Of a DNA stretch of 64,000 nucleotides, positions 18,953-30,965 are shown in pieces. Position 1 is the stretch's first letter. Each line of letters starts with the position of its first letter. The notes under the pieces are model-generated. The model had not been told where the DNA came from and did not search any database. It saw only the letters and a list, made by a program, of their open reading frames with translations. The stretch lies in assembly GCF_007994985.1 (NCBI RefSeq), contig NZ_VOQF01000012.1:62001-126000 (forward strand), written 5' to 3'. The translations under genes and the position numbers were made by a program. Origin of the DNA: Metabacillus litoralis (lineage in GTDB: Bacteria > Bacillota > Bacilli > Bacillales > Bacillaceae).

Positions 18953-19366
18953 CTTTTAAATCCCCCTTTAGTTCATTATAATGCAAAAATTCTGATATTT
19001 GTCTTTGTATTTTAAGTAGCTCTTATTTTTATAGATCTACTAATTAACTGGACTAGAAAACTATGTATGAAGTATATCAGAATATGAATTATAATACAAT
19101 AATATGTATAAATAACTTTTATTAGAATAGAATTAATTTTCTATTAATAATAAGATATTTACTATATATCTAATATAATCCAGGATATTTAAATTTATTT
19201 CAATTGTATCGGTACATAATCTCACATTAATAAATTATAACGTTAAGTTTTTAGTACTTATAAAATTACTTATATTTATTCATCTTTTCTTTGGATATTC
19301 CTTTTATTTTTTAATGTTGAATCAAATTTCATAGCGACAATTGCACCTGTATAAAAAACTACACAA
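18953..19366. other. AT-rich upstream region of the amino-acid ABC operon
   Basis: These 410 bases contain a TATAAT close to the lipoprotein gene (about 30 bases upstream, weak -35) and otherwise only very AT-rich sequence. I see no ORF, T-box or riboswitch. Repeat copy B begins at its right edge. Confidence 0.5.
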
Positions 19367-19710
19367 AGAGCCTGGGACATAATTAAAGAAATCATACAGA
19401 AAGTCGAATTAATCTAAATCAGTTAAGATGAAAGAAACAAGTTCGTTCCATTGCGCTGCAGACACTCGCTTTCCACGGGGAGGAAGCTGAGCCTCCTCGG
19501 CAAGCCTGCGGGGTCTCAGCCTTTCCTCTATTCCCGTAGGTGCCCGAGTGTCTTCCGCTCCATTCCACTAGCTCTTAAAAATAGTATACAAAATTAAAAA
19601 ATCTATTGAAAATGCAAATAAAAACCCGAACTATTAGGCGAAAGATTACTTGAAATATCACCTAATAATTCGGGTTTTTCATTAGCTTAAATACTTATGT
19701 CCCAGCCTCT
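19367..19710 (+). repeat. Dispersed intergenic repeat, copy B (most complete)
   Basis: This is the best preserved of the three copies. The left end agagcctgggacataa and right end ttatgtcccagcctct are 16-bp inverted repeats with one mismatch. The interior has the same GC-rich foldable block as copy A and, at the right, the hairpin acccgaa ... ttcgggt with flanking A- and T-runs. No ORF is seen. The minus-strand permease gene ends 11 bases beyond the right edge, so the element supplies its transcription terminator. Confidence 0.9.
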
Positions 19711-19720
19711 TTTAAAACAA

Positions 19721-20722
19721 TTATTTTAGCTTATAATACGTCAATGCTAGTGCAAAAGCTAGCACTGCCCCTTTTACAATATCCATCGCAAAATAAGGAA
19801 CGGACATCATAACAAGTCCATTTTGTAAAATTCCGATTAATACAGCACCAACAAATGTTCCAAAAGCGTTAGGTTTACCAGCTCCTAGAACGGAAAAACC
19901 GATAAATGCTGCTGCAACTGAATCCATTAAATATGGTCCTCCTGCATTAATTTCCGCTGTCATTACTCGAGAAGCTAAAATAATACCACCAATTGCTGCA
20001 AAGAGCGCTGAAAGTAGATAAGCAGCAACTTTATATTTATTAACAGGAATACCAGATAACCTTGCAGCCTCGATATTTCCACCAATCACATACATATATC
20101 GTCCATGCTTTGTGTACGTAAGGAATATATGAACAACTACAACAATAACAACCATAATAATGATAATCCAAGGAACTTGTCCTAGCTTTTGAAATAGCGG
20201 ACTAATTAATCCTGTTGCAAACGACCCATCAGGCATGACCATATTTTGTGAAACAGTTGCTCCTTTTGTATATGTGAGAGCAATTCCTTGAACGATAAAC
20301 ATGGTTGCAAGTGTAATCAGCATATCAGGAACTTTGAGTTTGATAATAAAAAACGAATTTAATACACCGACTAATAGTGAAGCAACAATTGCTGAGAATA
20401 TAGCGATAAAGGTATTTTGTGAAAACCACACAAACATAGATATAACAATCGCATTAGAAAGTGATGCAACAGATCCTACTGATAAATCAAACCCATTAAC
20501 TGAAAGTGAGATTGTAATTCCTATCGCAATAATGGTCACAATAGAAATGGAACGTAGAATATTTATAAGATTATTTCCTTGAATAAACGCTGGATTTGAT
20601 AATGCGAAAACAGCTACAAGTACAACAATTGTTAAAATTGTTCCATATTTATATAAAAATTGAAAAAGATCAAAAGTATTTTTAGTTGAATTCTTAGCTT
20701 GTACAGGATTTAATTCACTCAT
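19721..20722 (-). CDS. Ribose-type ABC importer, permease (S-box operon)
   Basis: A 333-residue membrane permease of the RbsC/AraH family with 8-10 helices. Family segments are VNGFDLSVGSVASLSNA and NAGGPYLMDSVAAAFIGFSVLGAGKPN. I place the start at ATG 20722, one base after the ATPase stop and preceded by CAGGAGGTAAC; an upstream in-frame start would overlap the ATPase gene. It is the last of three genes (binding protein, ATPase, permease) behind a SAM riboswitch. Substrate: sugar or sugar-like compound by family; methylthioribose or another methionine-salvage compound is inferred from the riboswitch. Confidence 0.9.
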   Translation of the reverse strand: MSELNPVQAKNSTKNTFDLFQFLYKYGTILTIVVLVAVFALSNPAFIQGNNLINILRSISIVTIIAIGITISLSVNGFDLSVGSVASLSNAIVISMFVWFSQNTFIAIFSAIVASLLVGVLNSFFIIKLKVPDMLITLATMFIVQGIALTYTKGATVSQNMVMPDGSFATGLISPLFQKLGQVPWIIIIMVVIVVVVHIFLTYTKHGRYMYVIGGNIEAARLSGIPVNKYKVAAYLLSALFAAIGGIILASRVMTAEINAGGPYLMDSVAAAFIGFSVLGAGKPNAFGTFVGAVLIGILQNGLVMMSVPYFAMDIVKGAVLAFALALTYYKLK

Positions 20723-20723
20723 C

Positions 20724-22226
20724 CTAGTTACCTCCTGTTGAATAATATAGTAAATCTGCTTCTTTGGTATCACTAGTATCAAGCTCTTTTACAGCCCTAC
20801 CATCGTATAATACATACACACGATTTGTTATACCGATTATTTCAGCAAGCTCTGATGATGCATAAATAATCGCTTTTCCTCTACTAGCAAGCTCACAAAT
20901 TAATTCGAATATATCTTTTTTCGCTCCAACATCGACACCTTTTGTTGGCTCATCAAAGATATACACCTCTGCATCTGCTATTAACCATTTACCAATCGCA
21001 ATTTTTTGCTGATTTCCACCTGATAGGTTTTTAACAATTGCTTCCTCAGATGGAGTTTTAACACCAAGACTTTCAATTACCTGCACCGCACGTTGTTTTT
21101 CTGCTTTTCGATTCAAGAAGCTGAACGGTCTTGTAAAAGCACCTAAATTTGCTGCCGTTAAATTAGTCACAACAGATTCGTGTACAAGTATTCCTTCTTT
21201 TCTTCTTTCCTCTGGAACTAATGCTATTCCTTGTTTAACTGCATGATAAGGAGATGTTAGTGTTAACTTCTTTCCATGCAGCTTCACTTCACCTGATGTG
21301 ATTTTTGTTTCGCCAAAAAGAGCTTTGCATAATTCTGTTTTCCCAGCTCCAACTAACCCAGCAATGCCAACTATTTCACCTTTACGAACTGTCATGGACA
21401 CTTTTGATAGTTTATCAGCATCATGAAGGTTACTCACTTCATAAATTACTTCACCACAATCAGAAGCTTTTTCAGGAAATTGTTCCTCAAGCTCTCTTCC
21501 AAGCATGTTTTCAACGACTTTGTTTTGTGTTGTATGTTTAATCAGCTCATGTGTAACAAGCTTGCCATTTCTCATGATTGTAATTTCCTCACAAACCTCA
21601 AAAATTTCTGGAAGTCTGTGTGAAATAAAAACAATGCCAACATTCTTGTCCTTTAATTCTTTCACAATTCTAAAAAGCTCTTTCGTTTCCGAATAGCTAA
21701 GAGGTGCGGTTGGTTCGTCCAAAATTAAAAACTTACAATCTGTTGATACTGTTCTAGCAATCAGTACCATTTGCTTCTCTGCTAGCGTTAACTCACTTAC
21801 TAGTTTTTTAGAAGAAACATTTATATTTAAAGTTTTTAGGATGTCTGTAGCTTGTTTATGCAGCACTTTCCAATTAATAAACTGCTTTTTCCCCATACCA
21901 TTAACTGTACTTGAAAGCATAATGTTTTCACCCACTGTTAAATAGGGAATTAACGCAGTATCTACTTCTTGATGAACAATTTGTATTCCATTTACTAATG
22001 CATCCTTTGGTGAACGAATACTCGTTTTCTTACTATCTAGCAAAATATCACCTGTATAGTGATCATAAGCTCCTGATAACACTTTCATTAATGTTGATTT
22101 ACCTGCACCATTGGCTCCAATCAGTGCATGAGTTGTTCCACTCTTCATCGTAAAATCCACACTATCTAATGCTTTTACACCGGGGAATTCAATTGAGATA
22201 TTAGTCATTTTTAAAACGGATTGCAT
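20724..22226 (-). CDS. Ribose-type ABC importer, double ATPase (S-box operon)
   Basis: A 500-residue fused ATPase of the RbsA/MglA family. The first half has Walker A GANGAGKST and Walker B FLILDEPTAPL with the usual degenerate signature (ELTLAEKQ). The second half has GLVGAGKTE as degenerate Walker A, the strong signature NLSGGNQQK and VYIFDEPTKGVDVG. Length and domain order are normal for the family. It starts at ATG with GGAGG upstream. An internal terminator-like hairpin at 22338 separates it from the binding-protein gene. The permease gene follows after one base. Confidence 0.92.
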   Translation of the reverse strand: MQSVLKMTNISIEFPGVKALDSVDFTMKSGTTHALIGANGAGKSTLMKVLSGAYDHYTGDILLDSKKTSIRSPKDALVNGIQIVHQEVDTALIPYLTVGENIMLSSTVNGMGKKQFINWKVLHKQATDILKTLNINVSSKKLVSELTLAEKQMVLIARTVSTDCKFLILDEPTAPLSYSETKELFRIVKELKDKNVGIVFISHRLPEIFEVCEEITIMRNGKLVTHELIKHTTQNKVVENMLGRELEEQFPEKASDCGEVIYEVSNLHDADKLSKVSMTVRKGEIVGIAGLVGAGKTELCKALFGETKITSGEVKLHGKKLTLTSPYHAVKQGIALVPEERRKEGILVHESVVTNLTAANLGAFTRPFSFLNRKAEKQRAVQVIESLGVKTPSEEAIVKNLSGGNQQKIAIGKWLIADAEVYIFDEPTKGVDVGAKKDIFELICELASRGKAIIYASSELAEIIGITNRVYVLYDGRAVKELDTSDTKEADLLYYSTGGN

Positions 22227-22324
22227 TTAGTTGTTCCTCCTCTCTATTTTTAAAAGCAGTATTTTTGATTATTTAGCAAAATTTTCTTTCACATGGAATT
22301 GGTTAATGAGGGGGTTCATATACA

Positions 22325-22376
22325 TTTGAGGAATAAAAGGTAACACTCTCTATAAGAAATAGAGAGTGTTACCTTC
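22325..22376 (-). terminator. Internal terminator between binding protein and ATPase genes
   Basis: On the minus strand AAGGTAACACTCTCTA pairs with TAGAGAGTGTTACCTT around a short loop, followed by TTATTCCTC. The stem is long and perfect; the U-run is poor, so partial read-through is likely. Confidence 0.65.
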
Positions 22377-22395
22377 GTTTTCTACTTCAAAAACT

Positions 22396-23520
22396 TTATT
22401 TTTTATAATATTCTTTTAACGTTTTCATCCACTCTTCTTCAAATGCAGTAGATTGTCCCCAGCCTTCAATTGTATCTGCTAGGTTTACCATGTTAATTGG
22501 TTCACTAGATTGTAATAATGCTTCTTGAGAAATTAATGAAGCTTCTAAATTATAAGTTGGCGGTGTTTCTTCACCAGCTAATTTTTTTGCTAGTAATCTC
22601 ATATCAACAGCTCCAATTAACTTCGGATCAACTGCTGCTGTATATTTCCAAGAGCTTTCTTCTGTTTGAATTTCTTGAAGATCTGCATTGGAAACATCAA
22701 TACCGTAGATTTTAATTTCATCTCGACCAGCTTCCTTAATCGCACGTGCTGCACCAATTGCAAATGCATCCCATGTTGCAAAAATCGCATCAATTTCACC
22801 TTTAGGATGTTTGTTAAGCATAGAAGCTACAGCATTTTGTGTTTGAACAGATGTATCCTCAGCTGCCACACCAAATCTCTCAATCTCTTTAATACCTGGG
22901 TTATTATCTAAAATTTCTTGATACACTTTATTTCTTCTTACCATTGGAGGAAATCCATCTACCCAAAGATACGCTATTTTAGCCTCACCATTAAAATCCT
23001 TCACCAACTGATCTAACGCTAGCTTTGCAAGTGCTTCATCATCCTGTGAAGTTAATGTTACACCTTCAATCGTTGATAACTTGTCATTTGAATCAAATGT
23101 AACAACACTTTTACCAGCATCAACTAGCTTTTGCACAGCCTCAACTGTTGCATCATCATCACCATGTGAAATAATAAAACCATCATAATCTTCTGTTAAT
23201 CCTTGTGCAATCGCATCATGGAACTTCGCTGTATCACCGTTTGCAGTGAATACATCAACTGTAAAGCCAAGTGCTTCTCCTTCTTCTTTCGCACCAGCTA
23301 AAAATTGTGCTGTATGATCGTCTCCACCAATTTTACGAATAACTTTAATTTTCGCACCTTCACCATTTGCAAAGCGTTCTGGTACATTTTCTAATGAAAC
23401 ATCTGGATTACCTTTAGCTGCTGTTGATTCAGTAGAATCTCCGCTTGAAGAACAGCCTGTAAGTAGTAAAGTAAATGCTAAAATGAAAATAAATGCTGAG
23501 TTGAAAAATTTGTTTTTCAT
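22396..23520 (-). CDS. Ribose-type ABC importer, substrate-binding lipoprotein (S-box operon)
   Basis: A 374-residue membrane-anchored receptor with lipobox LLTGC (Cys about residue 23) and a Peripla_BP_4 (RbsB-like) fold. It is longer than RbsB (about 300 residues). Typical segments are FLAGAKEEGEALGFTVDVF, VTFDSNDKLSTIEGVTLTSQDDEALAKLALDQL and AIFATWDAFAIGAARAIKEAGRDEIKIYGID. It is the first gene of the operon; its start has GGGGAG upstream and lies 55 bases after the S-box terminator. Family and riboswitch together point to a sugar moiety linked to methionine metabolism, such as methylthioribose; autoinducer-2 or ribose are alternatives. Confidence 0.88.
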   Translation of the reverse strand: MKNKFFNSAFIFILAFTLLLTGCSSSGDSTESTAAKGNPDVSLENVPERFANGEGAKIKVIRKIGGDDHTAQFLAGAKEEGEALGFTVDVFTANGDTAKFHDAIAQGLTEDYDGFIISHGDDDATVEAVQKLVDAGKSVVTFDSNDKLSTIEGVTLTSQDDEALAKLALDQLVKDFNGEAKIAYLWVDGFPPMVRRNKVYQEILDNNPGIKEIERFGVAAEDTSVQTQNAVASMLNKHPKGEIDAIFATWDAFAIGAARAIKEAGRDEIKIYGIDVSNADLQEIQTEESSWKYTAAVDPKLIGAVDMRLLAKKLAGEETPPTYNLEASLISQEALLQSSEPINMVNLADTIEGWGQSTAFEEEWMKTLKEYYKK

Positions 23521-23574
23521 GTTAGTTAACTCCCCTTTTTTCTTTTTAAAATTTTTGTTTACTTATAAAGACAT

Positions 23575-23602
23575 CAAAAAACCTCTCTAAGATAGAGAGG
23601 TT
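23575..23602 (-). terminator. S-box expression-platform terminator
   Basis: On the minus strand AACCTCTCTA pairs with TAGAGAGGTT around two bases and is followed by TTTTTG. The 5' arm can alternatively pair with AGAGAGG in the 3' strand of aptamer helix P1, giving the expected antiterminator when SAM is absent. Confidence 0.88.
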
Positions 23603-23625
23603 TCACCGCAAAAATATAGGGATCG

Positions 23626-23742
23626 CCTCTCTTATCTTCCAAAACCAATACGGTTCTGCAGGATTTAGCACCAATTCTAATTTGTATAGAACGGTTGCCG
23701 GGCGTCATCGGGCCAGTCCCTCTGCCACTCTTGATAAGAGAT
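23626..23742 (-). promoter_or_regulatory. SAM-I (S-box) riboswitch
   Basis: The minus strand contains all S-box conserved blocks in order: CTCTTATCAAGAG at the 5' side of P1, AGAGGGACTGGCCCGATGA, GCCCGGCAACC, GGTGCTAAATCCTGCAGA, and GAAGATAAGAG closing P1. SAM binding stabilises P1 and lets the downstream terminator form, so the transporter operon should be expressed when methionine/SAM is scarce. This is direct sequence recognition of a well-characterised class. Confidence 0.95.
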
Positions 23743-23777
23743 TAGTTTATGAATTTAAGTAATTTAACAATATGTTT

Positions 23778-23806
23778 ACTTTAATAGGGTATCGCATTAA
23801 TGTCAA
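23778..23806 (-). promoter_or_regulatory. Promoter of the S-box operon
   Basis: The minus strand reads TTGACA, 17 bases, TAAAGT, placing transcription start near 23771, about 30 bases before the aptamer. Confidence 0.6.
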
Positions 23807-24087
23807 CCACTATTTTTAATTTTCTAACTTATTAATTTTTATTTTTAGATGGAATTCGATGTTGAGAGGTAGGCTTACAGCTTGATGTGTGGCGTTTTTT
23901 GTCGAATGATGGATTAATTGAAAAAGTTGAATGATTATCGTGAAAAGTTGAATGATTATCTCAAATGTTGGCTGCTAATTAAACTATTTATGTGTTGGGA
24001 ATCGTATTTTATAGAACAAACAACAAAGATAACGAAAACAGCTTATATAAAAGAAGGTAAGCATCAAATGAGGCTTACCTGTCCAAA
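23807..24087. other. Intergenic region with a small repeat array
   Basis: The region between the S-box promoter and the small gene at 24088 is AT-rich. Apart from the 21-bp tandem repeats at 23916-23957 I see no element. The plus-strand frame through the repeats (KLNDYREKLNDY) has no SD and is created by the 21-bp period, so I do not call it a gene. Confidence 0.5.
23916..23957 (-). repeat. 21-bp tandem repeat array, two units
   Basis: On the minus strand the units are AATCATTCAACTTT followed by seven variable bases (tcacgat, ttcaatt), then a decayed third unit (aatccatcattcgac). The same 14-base core and 21-bp period occur at 43400-43483. Confidence 0.75.
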
Positions 24088-24213
24088 TTATTTACGTTTT
24101 TGACTCTTCAATTTGTTCATCTCAAGTTCTGCTGCATATTCTTCTTGAGATTTTCCTTGCTTTTGACTTTCTGACTGGATTTTTCTGAATTTGTTATCGT
24201 TTAAGTTTGGCAT
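24088..24213 (-). CDS. Hypothetical small hydrophilic protein, 41 aa
   Basis: An ATG at 24213 with a perfect SD (GGAGGTGGAAAT) opens a 41-codon frame beginning MPNLNDNKFRKIQSESQ and ending in KSQKRK. The product is Lys/Gln/Glu-rich with no hydrophobic core. It resembles the short basic proteins common in Bacillus (some spore-associated), but I cannot assign it to a named family. The SD quality is better than that of most neighbours, so I consider it a real gene. It is on the same strand as the MFS gene to its right but separated by that gene's terminator. Confidence 0.6.
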   Translation of the reverse strand: MPNLNDNKFRKIQSESQKQGKSQEEYAAELEMNKLKSQKRK

Positions 24214-24265
24214 ATTTCCACCTCCTCATTGACCTGGTTATTTTCTACAATTATTTCTCAATTAT

Positions 24266-24316
24266 TCAAAAAAGCATAAGAGCATGGGTTCTACGTAGAC
24301 CCAATTTCTTATGCTT
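24266..24316 (-). terminator. Terminator of the MFS gene at 24326
   Basis: The arms aagcataag and cttatgctt enclose an inner hairpin (tgggtctacgtagaccca-like). On the minus strand TTTTTTGAAT follows. Confidence 0.8.
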
Positions 24317-24325
24317 AATATACTT

Positions 24326-25579
24326 CTACTTAACAGCCTTCACAGCTGTTTCCACATTCATTTGACTACCCACAGAACGCTTTAGGACAAGTGGAAGAAC
24401 AAGAATGACTCCAAGAAGCATGCACACTCCTGAAATTTGATAAGAAAGAACTAAACCGAGATATGTTTTTAATAAACCAGCGAGACTCATCATGATGACC
24501 ATCGCTCCCATAAATAGTGGTGTCATAATCCCGTTTACACGTCCTATAAATGCTTCCTCTGCATTTTGTAAAATCATTGTATTAATACTAATTTGTATTG
24601 CTGGCATCATTAAGCCTGTAAAAAACTGTGCAACTAATGTTAGCCAGAGAATCTCTGAAAACCCGATCACTGAAATCATGATTGCATTTACTATCATTCC
24701 TGCTGCTAGCATTCTAATTGGTGTTATTTTTTTAGATAGAGCTAAGGCGATTCCCCCACCTATAATCATTGCAATTCCATTTATCGCCATAAACCACTGC
24801 ACAAATTCTTTATCCATCTGTAACTGCTCGGTCACGATGAAGATACCTAAAGGCTGGATTAAACCTATAGCTAAACCAGCAACAAAAAAATTTGCTCCTA
24901 ATAATCTTAAAAACTTATTGTTCACTACATATTTGAAGCCTTGAATAAATTCTTCTTTCACAGTAGTTGGAATTTCCTTCTTTTCCACCTCTCTATCTCT
25001 AGGCAGGAATGTAAGTGCTAAAGCTGAGAGAATAAACATGACTCCAGTTATTGCAATTGACAGTTCAATTCCATATTGTTGAAAAACAAAAGCTCCAATG
25101 ACAGGTCCTAAGATCATAAATAATGCAATCATTGTTTGATAAATGGACATTCCCATTTGAAGTTGCTCTTCTGGAACATGCAACTTAAATAATTTCATAC
25201 CTGAAGGCTGTGAAAATTGTGAAAGGATAGACGAAATTAGCATGGCAAAAAAGACAATTTTCCAAGTGGCAAACATTAACGTAAATAACACAGCAAAGAC
25301 TGAGATGGCACTTAATACATCACACCAAACCATCGTTTTCTTCGGTCTCCACCGATCAGCAAATGTTCCACCAATAATTGAAAAGATAAAAATCGGTGCA
25401 AATTCTGCAACTGAAATCATTGAGACAGCAAACGGGTCTTCATTTGTTTGCTCCATAACAAACAAAAGCACTGAAAAATTCCTTACCCAAATGCCAAGCT
25501 GTAGAAACAATCCAGAAAGTAATATAGCACGTACAAACCTATTACTCATAAACTCTTTAAAACTTGATTGTTTGTTCAT
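24326..25579 (-). CDS. MFS exporter, macrolide-efflux (MefA/DHA3) type
   Basis: A 417-residue, 12-TM transporter. The N-terminal layout FKEFMSNRFVRAILLSGLFLQLG, the A-motif-like GGTFADRWRPKKTMVWCD (about residues 61-78) and FIGRVNGIMTPLFMGAM in the C-terminal half are typical of DHA3 (MefA-like) proteins. It starts at ATG and is transcribed alone, with a hairpin terminator directly downstream. Family members export macrolides in some species, but most chromosomal Bacillus copies have no known substrate. Confidence 0.85.
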   Translation of the reverse strand: MNKQSSFKEFMSNRFVRAILLSGLFLQLGIWVRNFSVLLFVMEQTNEDPFAVSMISVAEFAPIFIFSIIGGTFADRWRPKKTMVWCDVLSAISVFAVLFTLMFATWKIVFFAMLISSILSQFSQPSGMKLFKLHVPEEQLQMGMSIYQTMIALFMILGPVIGAFVFQQYGIELSIAITGVMFILSALALTFLPRDREVEKKEIPTTVKEEFIQGFKYVVNNKFLRLLGANFFVAGLAIGLIQPLGIFIVTEQLQMDKEFVQWFMAINGIAMIIGGGIALALSKKITPIRMLAAGMIVNAIMISVIGFSEILWLTLVAQFFTGLMMPAIQISINTMILQNAEEAFIGRVNGIMTPLFMGAMVIMMSLAGLLKTYLGLVLSYQISGVCMLLGVILVLPLVLKRSVGSQMNVETAVKAVK

Positions 25580-28119: not shown

Positions 28120-29913
28120 TTATTTCAAAGGTAAACTGATTAAGAAGGTTGTTCCTTCTGTAGATGTTTCATGTAACTCTATATGTCCATTGTGGTTTTC
28201 AATAACTCTTTTTACCACCATTAATCCCAAACCTGTTCCATTTTCCTTATTGCTTGTAAATGGTTCATAGAGATTATCAATAATGTGTTTAGGAATTCCT
28301 TGGCCACTATCCTTTATAAAGATGTGATAAAAGTTATTTTGCACAACTGAAAAAATAGATAGATTTCCTTTACTTTCCATTGCTTCAATACTATTACGTA
28401 TTAAATTATGAAAAACCTGTTTTATTTGTTTAGCATCTATGTTTAGCGGAATTCTGTTCAGATCAATTGAAAAGTTGACATTCTCAGACGCTTCAATAAT
28501 AAGTGGTAAAAAGTCTTTAAGAACATCCTCCAGGAAAACTTCCTTTTTATTTGGAGCCCCTGGCTTAGATAAAAGCAGCATCTCTTCAATTATCGTGTTG
28601 ATTCGTTCTACTTCCTTCATAAGGAGAGGAATATGAAATTGTTCTTTATTTTCATTTGATATGGATTGTTCCATCAACGAAAGAAAACCATGAATAACAG
28701 CGAGCGGATTACGAATTTCATGAGCAGCTCCTGCTGCTATCTCACCGACAACAGCTAACTTCTCTGATTTATGCATTCGTTTTTCCAATACTTCTGTTTC
28801 TGTTATGTCTACGAAATTAACGATTCTTCCTATAACCTGCTGTTGTTGATTTTTAAGTTCTGCCTGAGAAACTAGTAAGTGTTTTGCTCCCTGCTCTGTT
28901 ACAAAAAGAACTTTTGTATGAGATGTTATTTCCTTTGTTGAGAGAATGCTCCAGAACTCTGCATTTAACTCTTCGATATTTTCTAAGCATTTATTATCGA
29001 TCTCTTTGTTATCCATGTTAAGTATATTAGCAGCCGTAGAATTACTCGTCATTTCTAATGGATCATCTGTAATTCTGATAATTCCAACAGGTAATGAGTT
29101 TAATATTTGTTCACGGTATACCTTATCATTCACAATCGTATTAAACGATTCTCTTAGTTTCACTGACATTTGATTGATTGAATTTGTTAGATGGTTAAAT
29201 TCAGTTTGTTCTGTAGAATCGATAGTTAGACCATATTCTCCATTAGCTATTTTATCTACTTTGTTTACAACCGTTTCAATCGGTTTTGTTAAGCTAGAGC
29301 TTATTCGGTAAGAAACAATAATTGACATTAAAATAGCTCCAGCTGTAACTAAGATGAGTAGCCATAACGAGCTTTTGATAATTGTAGAAAATTGGTTAGA
29401 GTGACCATCAAACTGTGAAACTGTTTGCTTTTTTGCCGTATTAATATCTTGTTTCAGCTCATTAAGCTGTGGAAGAAAGGTTGAATGAAAATACTCTCTT
29501 GTAGCTGGTTTATCATCAAAAGAAATAAGGCCTTGGATATTATTGATAATCATAAAATCTAGCAAATCTATTCTTTTTTTTATATTGCTCAATGAATCTG
29601 GAATAGAGTCTGAATCCTTCAATTCTCCTTCCATATCTGTAGCATATGCTTGGTAATCTTCTACAAGATTACAACATAAGTTATTTTCTAGATAATCATT
29701 AACAATATATTCTTTTACACCAAGTTCTTGCTCCCACTGACTTAATAGATGAAGCTCTGGTATATTTGTTCGTTTAATTTTATTACTCACTTGTGTAATA
29801 TCCTCGATTGATTGCACAAGAATTAATGAAAATCCACTTAAAATAATCGTTAGAATAAGAAGGATTGTGAGAATTTTTGTACGGAACGACATTGTTTTTA
29901 GTAATTTTTTCAT
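28120..29913 (-). CDS. Membrane sensor histidine kinase with HAMP and PAS domains
   Basis: A 597-residue sensor. TM1 (about residues 14-33) and TM2 (about 188-207) bound an extracytoplasmic helical sensor of 150 residues. A HAMP domain (about 208-260, SSSLTKPIETVVNKVDKIANGEYG), a PAS domain (about 270-385), the HisKA domain (AAGAAHEIRNPLAVIHGF, phospho-His about residue 398) and the ATPase domain (N box HNLIRNSIEAMES, G1 DSGQGIP, G2 NGTGLGL) follow. All catalytic boxes are intact. The closing architecture resembles the sporulation kinases KinC/KinD and similar orphan kinases. No response regulator is adjacent. ATG 29913 follows GGAGG by six bases. The Med-like gene lies 50 bases upstream on the same strand, so the two are probably one transcript. 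Confidence 0.88.
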   Translation of the reverse strand: MKKLLKTMSFRTKILTILLILTIILSGFSLILVQSIEDITQVSNKIKRTNIPELHLLSQWEQELGVKEYIVNDYLENNLCCNLVEDYQAYATDMEGELKDSDSIPDSLSNIKKRIDLLDFMIINNIQGLISFDDKPATREYFHSTFLPQLNELKQDINTAKKQTVSQFDGHSNQFSTIIKSSLWLLILVTAGAILMSIIVSYRISSSLTKPIETVVNKVDKIANGEYGLTIDSTEQTEFNHLTNSINQMSVKLRESFNTIVNDKVYREQILNSLPVGIIRITDDPLEMTSNSTAANILNMDNKEIDNKCLENIEELNAEFWSILSTKEITSHTKVLFVTEQGAKHLLVSQAELKNQQQQVIGRIVNFVDITETEVLEKRMHKSEKLAVVGEIAAGAAHEIRNPLAVIHGFLSLMEQSISNENKEQFHIPLLMKEVERINTIIEEMLLLSKPGAPNKKEVFLEDVLKDFLPLIIEASENVNFSIDLNRIPLNIDAKQIKQVFHNLIRNSIEAMESKGNLSIFSVVQNNFYHIFIKDSGQGIPKHIIDNLYEPFTSNKENGTGLGLMVVKRVIENHNGHIELHETSTEGTTFLISLPLK

Positions 29914-29963
29914 CACAATCCTCCTATCTTTTCTTGTATAGAGTGCTAGTTTTATAGGTAACT

Positions 29964-30965
29964 CTATGGAAAGATTAACTCACCATTATCGTATTGCTTC
30001 ATTTCATTTTCAATAAATTTTATATCTTCATTAGAAAATATTGGGCCAAAAGGTGCCAAGCTGTATACTCCATCTTCTTTAGTTAACAACACTTTTCCTT
30101 GAGGTATCCCTTTCGAACTGAAGTAATCTTCCATTATCGAAACATATGCTTGTGGCACATCATTTGTCACACTTGTTAAAACAAGATTCTTCGCCATATA
30201 TGATTGATCATCTAAATAACCAATAACATATATCCCTTCTTTTTTAGCTAAATCTATAATATCACGATTAAAGGAATTTCCCTTACTATAAACAACGTCA
30301 ACACCTTGCTCAATCAACTTCTTAAATATCTTCGTTGCAGTAATACCATCATCTCTGCTTCCAACCGCTTCATAAAAGAACTCTATCTCAGGGTTATAAT
30401 GGGTGAGAGCTGTTTCAAATTCAGGATTTTTTTCACGTGCGTAATTAGCATCGATTAAACCTACTTTATTTGTTTTTGTAGCAAGAACAGCAGATAATGC
30501 AGCGAAATATTCTACTTCTCCTTGATCGAATGTATAAACAGATTGATTACTATATTTAGATGAACCATGAATTGTAATAAAATGTACATTTTTATGTTTT
30601 TTTGCAGCTGCAGTAAAGGTATCTGAAAATTCTCGACCATGACCAATAATAAGCTTTGATCCTGCATTAATTGCTTCTGAAATAGTAGCTTTCATTTCCT
30701 TCTCTTTGTCTATTTCACTATAAAACGTAACATTGACCGGATATTGCTCTTCTATCTTCAACATCCCTTTATAAGCAAGACTTCCCCAGCTTTGATCAAT
30801 GACAACATCTGATGTTATAATTGCTACCTTTGTTTTACCACTAAATACATTGGATGTAGTTTGTAAGATTATTCCCCTAGATTGAAAGATAATTGTCCCT
30901 AATATAACAATAACAACAATCCCCGTTATTATACTAATCATCTTAAGCTGACTAGATTGTTGCAT
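29964..30965 (-). CDS. Med-like BMP-family ligand-binding protein, membrane anchored
   Basis: A 333-residue protein with one N-terminal transmembrane anchor (about residues 8-27) and an outward-facing BMP/PBP1-type ligand-binding domain. It resembles B. subtilis Med (positive regulator of comK) through segments such as DQSWGSLAYKGMLKIEEQY, IIGHGREFSDTF, KNVHFITIHGSSKYSNQSVYTFDQGE and GVDVVYSKGNSFNRDIIDLAKKEGIYVIGYLDDQSYMAKNLVLTSV. Med is a lipoprotein; this protein has no lipobox. BMP proteins bind nucleosides or purines in several species. The start has AAGGGGAG upstream. Being directly in front of a sensor kinase gene suggests a sensory rather than a transport role. Confidence 0.75.
   Translation of the reverse strand: MQQSSQLKMISIITGIVVIVILGTIIFQSRGIILQTTSNVFSGKTKVAIITSDVVIDQSWGSLAYKGMLKIEEQYPVNVTFYSEIDKEKEMKATISEAINAGSKLIIGHGREFSDTFTAAAKKHKNVHFITIHGSSKYSNQSVYTFDQGEVEYFAALSAVLATKTNKVGLIDANYAREKNPEFETALTHYNPEIEFFYEAVGSRDDGITATKIFKKLIEQGVDVVYSKGNSFNRDIIDLAKKEGIYVIGYLDDQSYMAKNLVLTSVTNDVPQAYVSIMEDYFSSKGIPQGKVLLTKEDGVYSLAPFGPIFSNEDIKFIENEMKQYDNGELIFP

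Follow-up and report, generated by a model that had tools for sequence, protein, structure and literature searches.

Which compound does a sugar-type transporter import when its genes lie behind a sensor of S-adenosylmethionine (SAM)? The question is raised by an operon in a 64-kb stretch of the Metabacillus litoralis genome (the window; contig NZ_VOQF01000012.1, positions 62,001 to 126,000). A SAM-I riboswitch (S-box) leader and three genes of a ribose-type ATP-binding cassette (ABC) importer occupy 23806..19721 on the minus strand and look like a single transcription unit (Table 1). A sequence-only reading of the window had proposed methylthioribose or a similar sulfur-containing pentose as the substrate. 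Our comparative analysis suggests that the operon very probably encodes an ABC importer for 5-methylthioribose (MTR) and that it is probably switched on when SAM is low. MTR is the most likely substrate because relatives of the operon adjoin methionine-recycling genes. What the sequences show directly is the riboswitch RNA, the trio of importer genes, the linkage conserved among relatives and, by family, most of the salvage enzymes.

The regulatory layout described in the sequence-only reading, an S-box with antiterminator, terminator and promoter ahead of three same-strand genes, was borne out. The S-box is the sole RNA family match at gathering threshold in the window (gathering score of RF00162, 44.4). 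Competition between the 3' strand of its P1 helix and the terminator is the usual antiterminator arrangement of an expression platform. The aptamer is clear, whereas the promoter and terminator each stand modestly above shuffled sequence. The promoter match is weak on its own, because two other sites in 19200-24330 reach the same score and the total of 24 sites is near the shuffled mean of 18.9. The leader terminator has a z score of -1.95 (12 of 200 shuffles were as good), and the consensus terminator scan does not list it (23604-23578). With 10 S-boxes in the 4,884,777 bases of the host assembly (4.88 Mb in 75 contigs), simple arithmetic gives a chance of ~0.0007 that an S-box falls within 700 bases upstream of a given gene on the right strand. 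Peripla_BP_4 matches occur at 26 places in the genome (four of them weak). By coordinates an S-box precedes two of these, the present operon and a BMP-type protein, and when 15 of the 26 were scanned with the S-box model, this operon alone gave a match.

Table 1. Features of the S-box-controlled importer operon in the window.
Feature	Coordinates	Strand	Basis and remarks
Sigma-A-like promoter TTGACA-17-TAAAGT	23778..23806	-	Consensus scan, 10/12; directly 5' of the S-box
SAM-I (S-box) aptamer	23629..23740	-	Rfam RF00162, 91.6 bits, E 1.3e-20, model positions 1-108 of 108
Antiterminator: P1 3' strand and following bases with terminator 5' arm	23590..23643	-	Duplex of -14.3 kcal/mol, and fold
Leader terminator hairpin	23578..23604	-	RNA folding; 12 pairs, loop of 3, into U run
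Substrate-binding protein, 374 amino acids	22396..23520	-	MtrB-like, probable lipoprotein
Hairpin between binding-protein and ATPase genes	22337..22375	-	17 pairs (listed on + strand), 18 in coding-strand fold; then TTTTATT
ATP-binding subunit, 500 amino acids, two nucleotide-binding domains	20724..22226	-	Pfam ABC_tran, 2 stretches
Permease, 333 amino acids from in-frame ATG	19721..20722	-	Pfam BPD_transp_2, 129.5 bits
Terminator-like inverted repeat 3' of permease	19620..19679	-	Arms of 22, 91% complementary, 16 between; T run after stem (coding strand)

The ribose-type binding protein, double ATPase and permease adjoin one another, as expected of mtrABC, and the operon holds no further gene; the methionine-salvage (mtn) genes lie elsewhere in the genome. 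Curated models place the transporter near the ribose type at scores below their cut-offs. The ATPase reaches 502.4 bits with NCBIfam AraG (cut-off 689) and 496 bits with RbsA (cut-off 745), and the permease 187.8 bits with RbsC (cut-off 398). The lipoprotein-type Cys23 of the binding protein is invariant in both alignments that we made. The nearest solved structures to the binding protein, clear of the rest, are 5ulb and 4ry8. The latter, titled as a 5-methylthioribose transporter binding protein, is second-best among solved chains by both sequence and fold. The structure model used was the one built with alignment A3; a model built without an alignment was poor (predicted local distance difference test, pLDDT, 52.9) and was discarded.

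Linkage in the order Bacillales provides the broadest evidence on the substrate. Among 199 genomes, 64 (our own included) carry a homologue at E ≤1e-30, at 65 places. Group A comprises 30 places, 63-100% identical and including our own, all of which were examined. Group B comprises 35 places at 36-47% identity, and 20 of these were hand-picked to spread over genera and to avoid contig ends. S-boxes were detected with Rfam in group A and with our model R1 in group B and in the named loci described below. An S-box lies directly upstream at 22 of the 30 group A loci, three of which (L038, L040 and L041) are divergent from an S-box mtnW. Three more (L036, L037 and L039) follow mtnX-mtnB-mtnD with no S-box in view, and another four (L015, L027, L033 and L042) precede mtnK-mtnA with no S-box within 17-18 kb. 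In group B, 18 of the 20 sampled loci have an S-box, which is directly before the binding protein gene in four and heads a same-strand gene string with mtn genes in 14. The other two, L044 and L045, have no S-box; their neighbours are mtnK, mtnA and the gene of a DeoR-type regulator. We read mtn genes within 11 kb at 16 of the 20. Across the homologues, shared gene strings include mtnK, mtnA, mtnW, mtnX, mtnB and mtnD. In total, 40 of the 50 order loci have an S-box at the head of the gene or gene string, nine have mtn genes alone and one (L043) has neither.

A second set was obtained by scanning named genomes with alignment A2; the best 80 of 543 confirmed loci are 64-99% identical, and the survey was confined to Bacillales. 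An S-box was found at 66 of these 80 (directly upstream at 64), mtnK-mtnA without an S-box at seven, and neither in view at seven. At two of the 80 (L131 3657-12808 and L135 3686-12838), the S-box heads mtnW-X-B-D, the importer and mtnK-mtnA on one strand. The nearest named binding protein among the 80, from Metabacillus crassostreae, is 99% identical. An S-box or mtn genes are in view at 49 of the 50 order loci examined (own included) and at 73 of the best 80 named loci, two counts that must not be summed, because some organisms occur in both sets (L015, L064 and L075 stand for a single contig).

The host genome encodes a route for the imported sugar. Its other nine S-boxes precede, among others, mtnK-mtnA, mtnW-mtnX-mtnB-mtnD, metK, a MetNPQ-like importer and methionine synthesis genes (names partly by eye). 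MtnK, MtnA, MtnW, MtnX and MtnB pass NCBIfam equivalog cut-offs; there is one MtnK, the MTR kinase, with 548.8 bits (cut-off 275), and MtnN is also encoded. The methionine route is the only one found in this genome. The match to 4ry8 by sequence and fold, the mtn gene strings and this route together support the sulfur-containing pentose that the sequence-only reading had put forward.

Two further S-box operons in the same genome are transporters. One (G000:C75:75073-81369; L011 1074-7112 plus the S-box) encodes a BMP nucleoside-type ABC importer with a binding protein, an ATPase and two permeases, together with a nucleoside phosphorylase-like protein (below cut-offs) and a protein that by eye resembles sulfite oxidase, and is a candidate importer of methylthioadenosine or a 5'-deoxynucleoside. 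Among 30 related loci scanned, an S-box precedes the binding protein gene in this locus and in L170 (74% identity) alone. A similar-looking sulfite-oxidase-like protein (by eye) lies between the S-box and mtnK at L059 (9569-10237). The other operon (G000:C75:163650-167522; L013 3651-7256 plus the S-box) starts with three genes that look by eye like an ABC importer of the amino-acid type. A homocysteine S-methyltransferase gene comes next (442.9 bits, cut-off 215), and the operon is a candidate for S-methylmethionine uptake and use.

Could the substrate be a different product of the same chemistry, or ribose itself? An RbsABC ribose importer under incidental SAM riboswitch control would account for the shared architecture and family. 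The binding protein, however, scores 50.8 bits with NCBIfam RbsB (cut-off 337), and the mtn linkage also argues against ribose. The sequence-only reading had named a residue-for-residue match to the ribose site as evidence against itself. No such match was found: at 16 ribose-site positions of RbsB, Asp67, Asp89, Arg141 and Asp215 are identical, Ile132 is replaced by Val and 11 are replaced or gapped. A ribose importer is therefore highly improbable. Autoinducer-2 (AI-2) is another product of SAM by-products, derived from S-ribosylhomocysteine, and an Lsr-type importer for it was considered. Against it stand 29.4 bits with NCBIfam LsrB (cut-off 384), a weak match to 1tjy (E 4.8e-5) and the single permease here, where Lsr importers have two; the neighbours found were mtn genes, lsr genes not having been searched for. 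We consider AI-2 extremely improbable. Import of 5'-methylthioadenosine or another methylthio-nucleoside instead of the free sugar would feed the same salvage route, and the genome encodes MtnN. Yet many group B homologues have the sugar kinase gene mtnK in their gene string, the title of 4ry8, a member of the nearest pair of structures, names an MTR transporter protein, and the BMP nucleoside-type S-box operon fits the nucleoside role better. A nucleoside importer is thus very unlikely.

The remaining alternative is a rival in breadth of substrate only: a general 5-deoxypentose importer that takes MTR and 5-deoxyribose alike, with the S-box setting just the timing. It is suggested by the seven S-box-less mtnK-mtnA loci among the best 80 of 543 named loci, six of which have an aldolase match. 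At four loci this class II aldolase is 74-92% identical to that of L065; at L146 and L149 it is 36-38% identical and lies upstream of the importer. The L065 aldolase matches class II aldolase models, all below cut-offs, so a DrdA-like name for it rests on the cluster; the likeness to DrdA lies in the grouping of a kinase, an isomerase and a class II aldolase, which passages of PMC6079011 give as the 5-deoxyribose salvage set. According to the same paper, DrdK of Bacillus thuringiensis acts on 5-deoxyribose and on MTR almost equally well (kcat/Km), and not on ribose. In the tree (a quick method with several long branches and labels set by hand), the S-box-less mtnK-mtnA rows are interleaved among the S-box rows, with 8 label changes, at least 6 of them forced by starred branches. 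L036, L037 and L039, with no S-box in view, were labelled S, and L015 and L075, with no aldolase in view, were labelled D. Fifty positions were compared as pocket or conserved core; they were chosen by alignment to RbsB and by conservation, without a ligand-bound structure as a guide. At these positions, 91 S-class rows and 11 S-box-less mtnK-mtnA rows of group A (two of the 11 are one contig) share their commonest residue. This count excludes 8 rows with neither feature as well as L044 and L045, further S-box-less mtnK-mtnA rows, whose residues depart from that of group A at 18 of the 50.

The dispersal in the tree and the shared commonest residues suggest that the importer may serve 5-deoxypentoses generally, a possibility that we hold tentatively. 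We also considered a separate ligand for the close S-box-less copies; it found no support among the residues compared: at the thresholds used, positions 110 and 284 alone have a different commonest residue in the two classes. It is conceivable, at a similarly tentative level, that one importer family serves two salvage routes, with S-box copies bringing in MTR for methionine and S-box-less mtnK-mtnA-aldolase copies bringing in 5-deoxyribose for central metabolism. The compared site residues are unchanged in the close group, so any change of role would lie in regulation and genomic setting and, if the two-route proposal is true, would have taken place several times in Bacillales. Such closely similar binding proteins with two controls and two neighbouring pathways provide a clean test case. 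For this genome broader 5-deoxypentose use leaves MTR import as the reading, since the methionine route alone was found here. A 5-deoxyribose importer for the dihydroxyacetone phosphate (DHAP) shunt would be expected to have a close relative of the cluster's class II aldolase encoded beside it or elsewhere in the genome; the operon has none, and the best match in the genome to the cluster aldolase is 29% identical.

Several observations weigh against MTR import. The ligand may be broader, because close S-box-less homologues keep other company: they sit with mtnK-mtnA, several also with a class II aldolase, and not with methionine enzymes. Neither an S-box nor mtn genes are in view at eight loci (L043, L076 on a short contig, L138, L139, L142, L143, L144 and L147). 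The S-box counts for group B and the named loci lean on R1, which was trained on 20 rows, 14 of them leaders of this operon type. The 178-residue product taken as MtnD by position has no NCBIfam match at 1e-10. The title of 5ulb speaks of a sugar transporter, without a ligand, and the presence of MTR in the 4ry8 crystal is presumed. An ABC importer is not the sole solution for MTR uptake, because B. subtilis uses MtrA (YfnA) as its MTR importer, according to passages of PMC5743806. Finally, our literature search, in a library that lacks most subscription journals, turned up no experimental work, binding and growth assays included, on this protein or its Bacillaceae homologues.

With MTR as the substrate, the operon would work as follows. 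When SAM is plentiful, the leader RNA would bind it, P1 would be shut, the terminator would form and the operon would be off. When SAM drops, the P1 3' strand would pair with the terminator arm and the operon would be transcribed. The binding protein would then capture extracellular MTR, and the permease and double ATPase would import it. MtnK would phosphorylate the imported MTR, and MtnA, MtnW, MtnX, MtnB and MtnD, with an aminotransferase, would convert the product to methionine. The ligand, the direction of transport and the response to SAM in this scheme are inferred.

Other features of the region were also seen. The hairpin between the binding-protein and ATPase genes is a candidate partial terminator that would keep the binding protein in excess. 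As a conserved attenuator it is weakly supported: among 75 of the best named loci with both genes present, a stem of at least 10 pairs occurs in 35, and a T-rich tail follows in 12 of these. Downstream of the operon, window positions 19365-19712 hold a ~350-base non-coding element with inverted ends, a dispersed repeat resembling a miniature inverted-repeat transposable element (MITE). At least 40 near-full-length copies with 85-100% identity, the window copy included, are present in the genome (40 of 225 candidates scored). The terminator-like stem 3' of the permease gene lies within this repeat and is supplied by it. At 28120-30965 a BMP-family binding protein gene (Pfam Bmp, 126.1 bits) lies directly upstream, on the same strand, of a histidine-kinase-like sensor gene (by eye), and the two possibly form a ligand-sensing pair.

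The operon can be compared with several known systems. It has the architecture and fold of E. coli RbsABC, including the four identical site residues, and differs from it in the 11 ribose-site positions noted above and in its longer binding protein. Of the two nearest structures, 4ry8 is Tlet_1677 of Thermotoga lettingae, with several site residues unlike those of the window protein and nearer to the order's second subfamily, and 5ulb belongs to a sugar ABC transporter of Yersinia enterocolitica. The neighbourhoods of several S-box-less homologues resemble the drdK-drdI-drdA clusters, some of which are noted in passages of PMC6079011 to contain sugar transporters; the window genome, in contrast, has an S-box and no close aldolase. 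The closest likeness is to the system named mtrACB or mtnXYZ. PMC3228920 (2011) reports that a probable transporter of MTR, which it names mtrACB, was recognised first in Bacillus cereus, where an S-box accompanies it, and that it has MetJ sites in gammaproteobacteria. The paper credits the B. cereus prediction to its reference 26 and presents the system as then without functional characterisation. The sequence-only reading was thus right that ribose-type cassettes linked to an S-box had already been put forward for MTR. Passages of other papers list mtnXYZ for MTR uptake (PMC4239095), annotate a system of B. cereus strains as 5-methylthioribose ABC transporter (PMC9502454) and call mtrB of Pectobacterium a putative methylthioribose binding protein (PMC7843439). 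The sugar-type set of three subunits, the methionine-responsive control (S-box in B. cereus, MetJ in enterobacteria) and the co-occurrence with mtn genes are as in our operon. We found no difference of kind, the window operon standing alone with its mtn genes elsewhere. This kind of importer has thus been proposed before, and our analysis provides broader comparative support for the substrate of a transporter that curated models score merely as a sub-threshold ribose type.
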